Assembly (NCBI GenBank): GCA_938075565.1
Contig: CALJGU010000010.1
Span: 1 to 63,239, forward strand
Direction: 5' to 3'
DNA from: an uncultured Opitutales bacterium
GTDB taxonomy: Bacteria > Verrucomicrobiota > Verrucomicrobiia > Opitutales > UBA2995
Length of the DNA stretch: 63,239 bases
Shown here: positions 2,651 through 40,592 of the stretch, one piece after another
Layout: every line of letters begins with the position of its first letter
Position numbering within the stretch: the stretch's first letter is position 1
Program-made: the position numbers and the translations under genes
The notes under the pieces: model-generated
The model's input: only the letters and a program-made list of their open reading frames with translations
Told to the model about the DNA's origin: nothing
The model's database searches: none

Positions 2651-3438
2651 AGAGCGCGCTCGAATTTCAAAAAAAGCAAGCATCAGGAGATCCCATTTCC
2701 ATGGTCACCTGCTACGATACGTGGTCAGCCCGAATCATTAATGATACGGAGATCGATTGTATTTTAGTGGGCGATAGTGCCTCCATGGTCATGCATGGTC
2801 ACCCCAGCACCGTCCATGCGGATGTTGATATGATGACTGCCCATGTGAGGGCGGTGGCAAAAGGAGCCCCCGATAAGTTTATTATTGGTGACATTCCCTT
2901 TCTTGCGCACCGCAAAGGTCTGCAACCACTGATGGAAACAGTGGATAAGCTCATGAAGGCCGGGGCTCATTCTGTGAAGCTTGAGGGTGCCCAGGGGCAT
3001 CTAGATGAGGTGTCTCACATAGTTCAGTCGGGCGTGCCCGTCATGGGTCACCTCGGTTTGACTCCGCAGTCGGTAAATCAACTCGGTGGATTCAAGGTCC
3101 AAGGTAAAGGTGAGGAAACCGCACGAGCGATCATGGATGATGCCTTGGCATTAGAAAATGCCGGTTGTTTCTCTATGGTTCTGGAATGTATTCCTGCTCC
3201 TTTGGCTAATGAGATTACAGAAGCCTTAAATACTCCGACGATTGGAATTGGTTCGGGTCCGCATACATCGGGTCAGGTCCTGGTTCTGCATGATCTGTTA
3301 GGAATGGATCCCAGCTTCCAACCGAAATTTGTCCGACGTTATCTCGATGGCTATGGCCTCATCAAAAATGCGATTGATCAATTTGATGAGGACGTGAAGT
3401 CCAAGTCCTTCCCCGTAAAGAAGGAGAGTTTTGTATGA
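2647..3438 (+). CDS. panB: Ketopantoate hydroxymethyltransferase
   Basis: First committed step of pantothenate synthesis: it adds a hydroxymethyl group from 5,10-methylene-THF to 2-oxoisovalerate. The 263-residue length is normal. Landmarks are SMVTCYDTWSARI, ILVGDSASMVMHGH (Mg-binding Asp), GAHSVKLEG, PVMGHLGLTPQSVNQLGG, and IGIGSGPHTSGQVLVLHDLLGM with the conserved HD. The start overlaps the stop of a 29-codon leader, and the stop overlaps the start of panC by four bases (ATGA). It is the first enzyme gene of the panB-panC-coaBC-coaX run. Confidence 0.97.
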   Translation: MKSALEFQKKQASGDPISMVTCYDTWSARIINDTEIDCILVGDSASMVMHGHPSTVHADVDMMTAHVRAVAKGAPDKFIIGDIPFLAHRKGLQPLMETVDKLMKAGAHSVKLEGAQGHLDEVSHIVQSGVPVMGHLGLTPQSVNQLGGFKVQGKGEETARAIMDDALALENAGCFSMVLECIPAPLANEITEALNTPTIGIGSGPHTSGQVLVLHDLLGMDPSFQPKFVRRYLDGYGLIKNAIDQFDEDVKSKSFPVKKESFV

Positions 3439-32438: not shown

Positions 32439-32765
32439 GTGGAAGCGATAGATATGTTTTTTTGATTCTACCCAGGCGCTCGATAGAACTTTGTGGCTTC
32501 CTAGCGGTTGATTCCGCTCTTGGTTGCGCCAGTCGCTTTAAAAGATGAGGATAATAAAATTCTTTTTGAAAAGGAAGTCAATGAAGCGCTGTGAAAAAGT
32601 GTAACTGGTTGAAGATGGAAGTCAGGAATTCTCAACCCTCTTCGTCCTCCTGCTTGTTGAGGATTGAGACCTCCTACTTTAAAACTATTTCCGTCTATTC
32701 TTTTTAATGTACTAAAAATAGGAGGCCAACTATTGTTGGCAAGTAAGAGGACGAGAAAGATTAGT
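32439..32765 (-). other. Intergenic region between dgt and glyA
   Basis: 327 bp. A minus-strand hairpin GCCAAC-aata-GTTGGC (32725-32740) followed after 7 bases by TTTTT (32714-32718) is a weak terminator for dgt. The rest should hold the glyA promoter; no riboswitch-like fold, ORF with coding character, or repeat was recognised. Confidence 0.4.
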
Positions 32766-37168: not shown

Positions 37169-38848
37169 TCAACTCTCGCTCACTTCGGAGCGATTGATGG
37201 CATTTACCAGTGCTTTCATGCTGGCGAGCTCGATATCGGTATCGATACCCACTCCCCAGTGTTGACCGCCGTTGTATTTCTGAATTTGAACATAAGCAGC
37301 TGCTTTGGTTCCGGATCCATACCCTATTGAATGCTCTGAAAACGAAACTAGATTGAAGTGTTTTAACTCCTCTTTTTCCAGTGCGTTACAGAATGCATTA
37401 ATCGGTCCGTTGCCTCGGCCCTGGACTTGTTTGTCTTCGGCGTTCCAAGTAAGGCTGATATCGAGTTCGATTTCCCGAGTGGCTGAAAACCTGCCCAGCT
37501 CCTTGATGTCGTTCACCTTTAGTGGAGAATTCTTATCCGTATATTCCTGAATAAATGATCCCAGGATTTCATCAGGCGTCAACTCGCGTGACTGTGTGTC
37601 GGCAAGGTCGTAAACCATTTTCCCCAGTTCCGGGTGCATGGGACGAGGGATCTGGTAGCCGTATTCGTTTTCCAATACAAAAGCTACGCCTCCTTTTCCT
37701 GACTGACTGTTGATGCGGATAATGGCCTCATAGTTTCTCCCAATATCTTTGGGATCGATGGCCAAATAGGGCACCTGCCAGAGTGCTCCTGCTTCCGGAT
37801 CCATCTGTTCCATGCCCTTGCGAATAGCGTCTTGGTGTGAGCCACTGAAGGCTGTAAAAACCAGGTCGCCACTGTACGGCCAGCGATCATGAACATCCAT
37901 ACGAGTACAATGTTCATAAATCCTTCGGATTTCGCTCAGGTTCGAAAAATTTAGCCCTGGTGCCACTCCTTTACTGTACATGTTCAAGGCAACGATGACG
38001 ATATCCAGATTTCCAGTTCGCTCACCATTGCCAAACAAAGTGCCTTCCACCCTGTCGGCGCCAGCCATCAAACCTAATTCAGTCGCAGCTACTCCAGTGC
38101 CCCGATCGTTGTGAGTATGTAGACTTACAATGATTTGGTCACGTTTTGAGAAGTTCCGACAAAACCATTCGATCTGATCAGCGTGAACATTGGGTGTAGC
38201 CAACTCCACGGTCGCTGGAAGATTCAGAATGATTCTCTCTCCAGGTCCGGGATTCCAGGTCGCGAATACCGCTTCGCATACATCGAGTGCGAATTCCATT
38301 TCTGTATCGGAGAAACTCTCCGGTGAATATTGGAAATCGATCTTGGTATTCGGAACGGTTTCAACCAGTTCTTTGCAAAGCTGGGTTCCCTTAACGGCGA
38401 TGTCTTTGATCTCTTCCTTACTCAAACCAAAGGTCACTCGACGTTGGAGTGGGTTGGTTGAATTGTAGAGATGGACAATGACGTTCGGTGCTCCGTCAAT
38501 CGCTTCGTAGGTTTTACGAATCAAATGTTCGCGAGCCTGAACAAGGACCTGCAGGGTTACGTCATCCGGGATCAACTTATCGTCAATCAATCTGCGGAGA
38601 AAATTGTACTCCGTATCGCTGGCTGAGGGAAATCCGACTTCAATCTGCTTGAATCCGACATCCACCAACAGTTTGAACATCTCGAGCTTCTCCTCGATGT
38701 TCATGGGAATGGCGAGGGCTTGGTTACCATCGCGCAAGTCGACGCTGCACCAGATGGGTGCTTCATCGATCGTTTGATCGGGCCATGTTCGGTCGGGTAA
38801 TTCGACGCCTTTAAATGGCTTATACTTGGTTATAGGTGCTTTTTGCAT
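37169..38848 (-). CDS. leuA: 2-isopropylmalate synthase (long, LeuA type 2)
   Basis: First committed step of leucine synthesis: acetyl-CoA plus 2-oxoisovalerate. The 559-residue protein has the N-terminal catalytic TIM barrel (WCSVDLRDGNQALAIPM, SLHTHNDRGTGVAATEL with metal His residues, GTLFGNGERTGNLDIV) and the C-terminal LeuA allosteric domain (from about 430) that binds leucine. A leucine-rich leader peptide and a stable hairpin lie between its ATG and mscS, so it is probably controlled by leucine supply as well as by feedback inhibition. It shares its substrate 2-oxoisovalerate with PanB. Confidence 0.96.
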   Translation of the reverse strand: MQKAPITKYKPFKGVELPDRTWPDQTIDEAPIWCSVDLRDGNQALAIPMNIEEKLEMFKLLVDVGFKQIEVGFPSASDTEYNFLRRLIDDKLIPDDVTLQVLVQAREHLIRKTYEAIDGAPNVIVHLYNSTNPLQRRVTFGLSKEEIKDIAVKGTQLCKELVETVPNTKIDFQYSPESFSDTEMEFALDVCEAVFATWNPGPGERIILNLPATVELATPNVHADQIEWFCRNFSKRDQIIVSLHTHNDRGTGVAATELGLMAGADRVEGTLFGNGERTGNLDIVIVALNMYSKGVAPGLNFSNLSEIRRIYEHCTRMDVHDRWPYSGDLVFTAFSGSHQDAIRKGMEQMDPEAGALWQVPYLAIDPKDIGRNYEAIIRINSQSGKGGVAFVLENEYGYQIPRPMHPELGKMVYDLADTQSRELTPDEILGSFIQEYTDKNSPLKVNDIKELGRFSATREIELDISLTWNAEDKQVQGRGNGPINAFCNALEKEELKHFNLVSFSEHSIGYGSGTKAAAYVQIQKYNGGQHWGVGIDTDIELASMKALVNAINRSEVSES

Positions 38849-38898
38849 TTGGGCCTAAATGTGTTAAAATTGTGCTGCTTATTTGTTCTTTGAGTGAA

Positions 38899-38935
38899 TT
38901 CCCGGTTATTAAAGTTACTTGCCAGAACCCGGGAA
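38899..38935 (-). promoter_or_regulatory. Leader hairpin upstream of leuA
   Basis: On the minus strand TTCCCGG pairs with CCGGGAA (38929-38935 with 38899-38905), extended by two A-T pairs across a one-base bulge. It lies 18 bp after the leader-peptide stop and about 50 bp before the leuA ATG. The G-rich end of the leader ORF could pair with TTTCCC and compete with this stem. There is no T tract, so it is not a standard terminator; it may act on translation, or with Rho. Confidence 0.5.
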
Positions 38936-38952
38936 ACAACGGGCATAGATAT

Positions 38953-39024
38953 TTACTCCCCCAAGGGGAGCAGCAGCGAAAGGCCTAGTAGGAGCAATCC
39001 TAATGATGGGCAAGTGGTGTTCAT
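38953..39024 (-). CDS. leuL: leuA leader peptide, 10 Leu in 23 residues
   Basis: On the minus strand the ATG at 39022-39024 opens a 23-codon ORF with TAA at 38953-38955. Residues 8-21 are LGLLLLGLSLLLPL; ten of the 23 residues are leucine, using TTA, TTG, CTC, CTA, CTT and CTG codons. It sits 104 bp before leuA, between mscS and leuA. This is the layout of leucine attenuator leaders (leuL), in which ribosome stalling on Leu codons reports leucyl-tRNA shortage. The Shine-Dalgarno match (AGAG) is weak. A hydrophobic ORF arising by chance is the main alternative. Confidence 0.75.
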   Translation of the reverse strand: MNTTCPSLGLLLLGLSLLLPLGE

Positions 39025-39053: not shown

Positions 39054-39076
39054 AAAATAACGGCCTGAGTCAAGCC
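39054..39076 (-). terminator. Possible terminator after mscS
   Basis: On the minus strand the inverted repeat GGCTTGA-C-TCAGGCC is followed by GTTATTTT. The repeat is almost without a loop, so the inner pairs must open. It lies 5 bp after the mscS stop codon and would separate mscS from the leuA leader. Its 5' half also contains TTGACT, a good -35 hexamer for a leuA promoter. Confidence 0.4.
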
Positions 39077-40493: not shown

Positions 40494-40592
40494 TCGGCCG
40501 GGTCCCACGGGTGCTCGACAGACGAACTCCGCCAGGACCGGAAGGTAGCAACGGTAGTCATGATCGTGCTAGCCGTGGGTAACCTGGTCGTC
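40494..40592 (+). ncRNA. ffs: Signal recognition particle RNA, small bacterial type
   Basis: The SRP helix-8 signature is CCAGGACCGGAAGGTAGCAACGG (given in part: GACCGGAAGG at 40536-40545 and AGCAACGG). The ends pair over a long stem: GGCCGGGT (40496-40503) with ACCTGGTC (40582-40589), and CCCACGG with CCGTGGG. A run CCTTTTCATTTTTTT follows and acts as terminator. The ffs-dnaX order is common in bacteria. A longer dnaX frame that starts inside this RNA is not used. Confidence 0.92.

Follow-up and report, generated by a model that had tools for sequence, protein, structure and literature searches.

A conserved leucine-rich leader upstream of leuA in a family of Opitutales, with leucine codons complementary to the leuA ribosome-binding site

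The window, a 63,239-nucleotide stretch of an uncultured Opitutales genome (contig CALJGU010000010.1), carries a short leucine-rich open reading frame ahead of leuA that we regard with high confidence as a leucine-sensing leader of some kind. Comparison with named relatives also assigns the window to Opitutales, Verrucomicrobiota, the best named match (for example Opitutales UBA2995) standing at 82-83%. Ribosomes short of leucine very probably switch leuA on through this leader, and the reading we favour, with modest confidence, is translational attenuation of leuA, in which leucine codons of the leader would pair with the leuA Shine-Dalgarno sequence. Sequence comparison establishes the leader itself, the conservation of its leucines, constraint at the RNA level, complementarity to the leuA start region and the absence of a terminator. 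The features at the locus are:

37169-38848, minus strand, leuA, encoding a 2-isopropylmalate synthase of the yeast/actinobacterial type (TIGR00970, PRK03739)
38953-39024, minus strand, leader peptide ORF, with a conserved core of codons 1-20 (39024-38965) that ends G-L-x-L-L-L-P
39068-39073, minus strand, TTGACT, a -35-like hexamer in the conserved block CTTGACTC, from the alignment of eight family genomes

The leader ORF runs from ATG to TAA over 23 codons (minus strand 39024-38953; ATG AAC ACC ACT TGC CCA TCA TTA GGA TTG CTC CTA CTA GGC CTT TCG CTG CTG CTC CCC TTG GGG GAG TAA) and its product, MNTTCPSLGLLLLGLSLLLPLGE, has leucine at 10 of 23 residues with runs of LLLL and LLL, just as described in a previous sequence-only reading of this DNA. 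That reading had also proposed looking for the ORF in relatives, and the leader was kept in all eight genomes of the family, in frame, without an indel in codons 1-20, and 173-180 nt upstream of leuA. Codons 14-20 aligned as G-L-x-L-L-L-P across the eight genomes with a pN/pS of 0.39. Leu18 was invariant despite being written with four different codons (CTG, CTT, CTA, CTC) and is, on this alignment, held at the amino acid level. Because five of the eight genomes stop directly after Pro20, the last three codons of the window's leader (LGE) fall outside the conserved core; the other three (the window, L006, and the nearest relative of the window) have TTG or TGG at the stop position and a frame three codons longer.

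The downstream gene scored 742 bits to TIGR00970 (cut-off 697) and 826 bits to PRK03739, and its nearest solved relative was the 2-isopropylmalate synthase 1sr9 (E 4e-170), which we take to be the M. tuberculosis enzyme. Upstream of the leader, CTTGACTC was invariant in 8/8 family genomes at about 45-49 nt from the leader ATG. Since this spacing hardly changes while the stop of the upstream gene, mscS, lies anywhere from about 57 to 168 nt away from the leader, the leader and leuA likely have their own promoter, with an inferred transcription start. TTGAC(A/T) was similarly placed in other Opitutales. A promoter consensus scan before the leader returned no match, and the -10 region was poor with no clear -10. 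In the window's genus the leader ATG has a weak GAG in front of it, which the sister genus lacks.

Parts of the leader were also fixed at synonymous positions. Across the family, the leader retained GGC (8/8), CTA (7/8), CTC (8/8), and CCC (7/8), while among conserved columns of leuA itself a single codon in all eight genomes was found at 0/27 glycines, 0/33 leucines, and 0/19 prolines, and CTA made up 5% of leuA leucine codons. Set against this scrambling of synonymous codons elsewhere, the GGC-CTA and CTC-CCC positions are held at the RNA level. This synonymous constraint is a stronger argument for the candidate helices below than the pairing or covariation tests.

39009-39015, minus strand, 5' arm of P2 (ACTTGCC, leader codons 4-6), complementary to GGCAAGT at 38923-38917
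38917-38923, minus strand, 3' arm of P2 (GGCAAGT), in the loop of hairpin P7, from the alignment
38980-38985, minus strand, 5' arm of P4a (GGCCTT, GGCCTA in relatives; codons Gly14-Leu15), pairing with the leuA Shine-Dalgarno
38852-38857, minus strand, 3' arm of P4a (TAGGCC), which holds the Shine-Dalgarno-like AGG of leuA (38856-38854); five pairs in the window
38972-38977, minus strand, 5' arm of P4b (GCTGCT, within codons 16-18, Leu17-Leu18), pairing with AGCAGC at 38879-38874
38874-38879, minus strand, 3' arm of P4b (AGCAGC), complementary to GCTGCT
38956-38970, minus strand, P5, leader-terminal hairpin CTCCCC-TTG-GGGGAG over Leu19-Pro20 and the stop position of relatives, from the alignment
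38899-38935, minus strand, P7, hairpin TTCCCGG/CCGGGAA with arms at 38935-38929 and 38905-38899

Bases paired in 93% of cells for these helices versus 25-54% in slid controls. Only one compensatory change was found overall, in P2 of L006, and 61/500 shuffles reached the covariation score, which was not significant; covariation is weak because most pairs hardly vary. The candidate helices are backed by conservation across the alignment, not by covariation. The leuA AGG was conserved in 8/8 family genomes at -8 to -6, P7 was intact in 6/8 with two pairs missing in L005 and L006, and mismatches interrupted P4b in L008 and L009 of the sister genus. The whole 231-nt region was not unusually stable relative to shuffles (z = -1.19). 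One further hairpin within the leader, P3 (TTAGGA/TCCTAA), was dropped as it was not kept in the sister genus.

The sequence-only reading had placed a hairpin with a 9-bp stem at 38899-38935. The hairpin exists there, its stem being 7 bp long and continuing beyond a bulge, and that reading was right that no T tract comes after it. The competition proposed for its 5' side, with the leader's G-rich end as alternative partner, found no support; this end instead folds back on the Leu19-Pro20 codons (CTCCCC/GGGGAG). Of the alternative pairings, that of the leucine codons with the leuA ribosome-binding site, which the earlier reading missed, is the most informative.

Structure predictions for the ribosome-free state placed the leuA AGG in pairs with the leader at mean probabilities of 0.6-1.0 in six of the eight genomes, where it was mostly 0-12% unpaired; in L006 little or no such pairing was predicted. 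Blocking codons from about 10 to 20 raised the predicted unpaired probability of the AGG to values between roughly 0.05 and 0.8 that varied with the genome and the codon blocked, such that exposure upon stalling would be partial in the window (about 0.05-0.34) and reach 0.4-0.8 in some relatives. In the window's genus the predicted duplex of the leader with the true start site surpassed those with shuffled ones (z -1.0 to -3.0, averaging about -2.1 over six genomes), whereas in the sister genus (L008, L009) it was no better than shuffles. Pairing of leucine codons with the Shine-Dalgarno was considered as a rule for Opitutales at large and discarded, as only the window's genus beat the shuffles and other Opitutales groups were without the pairing. 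Mean accessibility over -16 to -4 of the leuA start was an uninformative measure.

Under translational attenuation, the leader would sense leucine through ribosome position, with initiation of leuA translation as the output. We infer that the leader is translated, that ribosomes stall on it, and in which direction and how strongly leuA responds, as follows. With ample charged tRNA-Leu, a ribosome would complete the leader and depart, and the freed codons 14-18 would pair with AGCAGC and AGGCC near the leuA start, hiding the Shine-Dalgarno and keeping leuA low. When leucine is scarce, a ribosome stalled on Leu15-Leu19 would mask these codons, leaving the leuA site open and leuA high.

It is improbable that the translated leader works mainly through translational coupling, reinitiation, or polarity, with RNA structures that only insulate leuA. 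The leader does persist among Opitutales families while the structures vary, and its stop lies 104 nt from the leuA ATG, but this distance is long for reinitiation, and pure coupling needs no selection for leucine at fixed positions.

A scan for an intrinsic terminator (hairpin plus T tract) between leader and leuA, 38953 to 38848, found none, in line with the doubt already voiced about classical termination at this locus. The missing leuA terminator is informative because the same genus uses intrinsic terminators for attenuation at trpE, where a Trp leader is followed by two terminators. The leuA output in the window is therefore probably not termination. Premature termination that dispenses with a canonical T tract (through Rho or at an unusual hairpin), with P2, P5, and P7 as alternates and the same ribosome-sensing leucine leader, is rather unlikely. 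The partly exclusive helices P2, P5, P7, and P4 are conserved in sequence as it would require, and both the trpE terminators of the genus and the deeper phylum members that pair a leader with an intrinsic terminator speak for it. However, no terminator-like site occurs between leader and leuA, P7 is weakened in 2/8 genomes, and this reading leaves unexplained why GGC-CTA is fixed at synonymous sites along with a matching AGG(C/T)C near the leuA start. Translational attenuation remains our favoured reading.

The deeper members in which a leader is followed by a terminator before leuA were L130, L134, L136, L138, L140, and L141. L134, L136, L138, and L140 had the order TTGACA box, leader, and GC-rich hairpin with a T tract, with a TTGACA-18-TACTAT promoter and an 11-pair terminator in L138. 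These attenuators share with the window a Leu-rich leader before the same leuA type, and in those four genomes the TTGACA box, but differ in having their own GC-rich hairpin with a T tract after a leader of the type MKNxFNxLxLLLLAG.

Much of Opitutales, and deeper phylum members too, had comparable leaders ahead of leuA. Among 94 distinct leuA upstream regions, which are related to one another and so are not 94 independent trials, 22 had an ATG ORF with at least four leucines within its last seven codons, versus 0.35% of dinucleotide shuffles and 0/94 reverse complements. With at least three leucines the count was 42/94 versus 2.6% of dinucleotide shuffles and 1/94 reverse complements. Leader types varied by lineage, with lineage labels partly inferred. 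Pelagicoccus-like leaders were MNLNVQPTLRLSKLDSLLLA, Puniceicoccaceae/Coraliomargarita-like leaders ended in LLP over a P5-like CTCCCC..GGGG hairpin, Opitutaceae-like leaders (M....QALRLT) were followed by a strong hairpin, and deeper Verrucomicrobiota had the MKNxFNxLxLLLLAG type. In the Pelagicoccus group a hairpin, GACAGCC/GGCTGTC, surrounds the leader end with one compensatory pair (GC, AU, CG, UA), and its covariation score was reached by 11/500 shuffles. Since clear leaders were few or absent in a further 20 deep-phylum leuA upstream regions, the Leu leader before leuA is, on these comparisons, widespread but not universal in Verrucomicrobiota. The ribosome-sensing leucine leader proposed by the sequence-only reading is supported and conserved in relatives.

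A CGACTTA motif (mostly CTNCGACTTA(C/G), Leu-Arg-Leu-Thr/Ser) was conserved at the nucleotide level within leuA leaders of 28 distinct upstream regions from Pelagicoccus, Opitutaceae-like, and some deeper clades (e.g., at -181 in L079, -137 in L119, -166 in L121, and -120 in L132 relative to leuA). It is fixed at synonymous sites, and a search for a complementary partner found none. CTTAGC is common to CGACTTA-type leaders and actinobacterial LEU leaders.

This recurrence of Leu-rich leaders across the phylum on differing RNA sequences, and the absence of any Rfam riboswitch or T-box match at this locus, make it very improbable that the RNA is a protein or small-molecule binding site with an incidental Leu-rich ORF, even though nucleotide conservation is high in unpaired stretches, such as GGCAAGTA(A/G)C, and not only in paired ones, and a protein-binding site has been proposed for the LEU element (PMC1262725). 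Rfam searches of leader peptides, T-boxes, and riboswitches gave no match to the leader region at gathering score, and 18 related loci had no leader family; near-threshold matches to isrP and RFPL3-AS1 were dismissed as chance.

Leader-dependent control of amino acid genes has several known forms. Transcription attenuators of enterobacterial leu, ilv, and trp operons combine a leader peptide containing regulatory codons with mutually exclusive hairpins. The window shares the regulatory codons in a short leader, but is without the terminator hairpin plus T tract, and its pairing extends to the leuA start. In ermC-type translational attenuators, as in the proposed model, stalling on the leader uncovers a Shine-Dalgarno that is otherwise sequestered; the trigger there is an antibiotic together with the nascent peptide, and here it would be uncharged tRNA.

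The actinobacterial analogy drawn by the sequence-only reading proved a good one, the LEU element being the known system nearest in logic. In the LEU element upstream of actinobacterial leuA, the Leu run pairs with the leuA Shine-Dalgarno without a terminator (Seliverstov et al. 2005, PMC1262725). Both systems have a Leu-run leader before the same leuA type, leucine codons complementary to the Shine-Dalgarno, no intrinsic terminator, and further helices with a possible pseudoknot between. For the LEU base stem, the window's counterparts GGCCT:AGGCC and GCTGCT:AGCAGC are complementary in the genus and under synonymous constraint, with covariation that is not significant; for the pseudoknot, candidate helix P2 (arms 39015-39009 and 38923-38917) would form pairs that cross those of P4 and P7, but has its 5' arm outside the base stem. 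The two differ in phylum, helices, leader sequence (the window is without LLLLSCRG), and Shine-Dalgarno (AGG within TAGGCC versus GAAGAAG-like), and the window has a terminal hairpin over the leader end. The LeuL1 leader of Streptomyces lividans is MRFGLLLLSCRGEGL (PMC8079986). The actinobacterial leader and RNA sequence (CTTCTTAGCTGC, LLSCR) was absent from the window family and present in L142 and L143, and in L142, a Microbacterium, codon:Shine-Dalgarno complementarity is visible between CTGCTTCTTCTT and GAAGAGAAGAAG. By analogy, the window's element would work like the LEU element without being a demonstrated member, as leader motif and helices differ. Upstream of leuA in a Sinorhizobium (L149), a Leu-rich stretch, CTTCTTCTTCTCGGC, occurs with GAAGAGAAG just before leuA, and LEU-like pairing in Alphaproteobacteria is possible too.

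We tentatively propose, as somewhat short of an even prospect, that Leu leaders before yeast-type leuA are widespread in Verrucomicrobiota with differing outputs. Some deep clades would use an intrinsic terminator, and in the window family the sensing codons would pair directly with the leuA ribosome-binding site, a solution reached independently of the LEU element. If true, one sensor has interchangeable outputs. Ribosome-mediated control of amino acid genes has been described mainly in Proteobacteria, Actinobacteria, and Firmicutes, and this case adds a phylum; the open-access papers searched contained no description of such leaders in Verrucomicrobiota. The case would provide a natural series in which one kind of sensor is tied to differing outputs, and an example, open to testing, of codons serving at once as sensor and anti-Shine-Dalgarno. 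It also bears on how the actinobacterial LEU element works.

Other loci were noted alongside leuA. The trpE leader of the same genus (L183, about 2886-3255, minus strand; also L182, L184, and L186) spans about 34 aa counted from a conserved start codon, ends SWWWS, and is followed by tandem intrinsic terminators (GCGCGG..CCGCG-T6 and GCCGTGG..CCACGGC-T7), the classic layout of a trp attenuator, here in Verrucomicrobiota. A candidate Ile-rich 'leader' ahead of ilvB, STRILII, was rejected because it lies antisense to the start of a divergent gene (MIKILVLGDIVGRPGR); within about 120 nt upstream of ilvB, a block GGTTGCAC..AACCCTAGTTTCGGCTGGAATTTTTT was conserved in 6/6 aligned family genomes (L170, L172-L176). 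A Leu-rich ORF before leuC in two near-identical genomes (L197 and L198) was set aside as not common to other genomes. Within the window, 32463-32546 (minus strand) matched the ZMP/ZTP riboswitch just over the Rfam cut-off, and 40496-40592 (plus strand) matched the Bacterial small SRP RNA. Because the latter overlaps the listed start (40560) of a dnaX-like ORF, it suggests that the true start of that ORF lies downstream.
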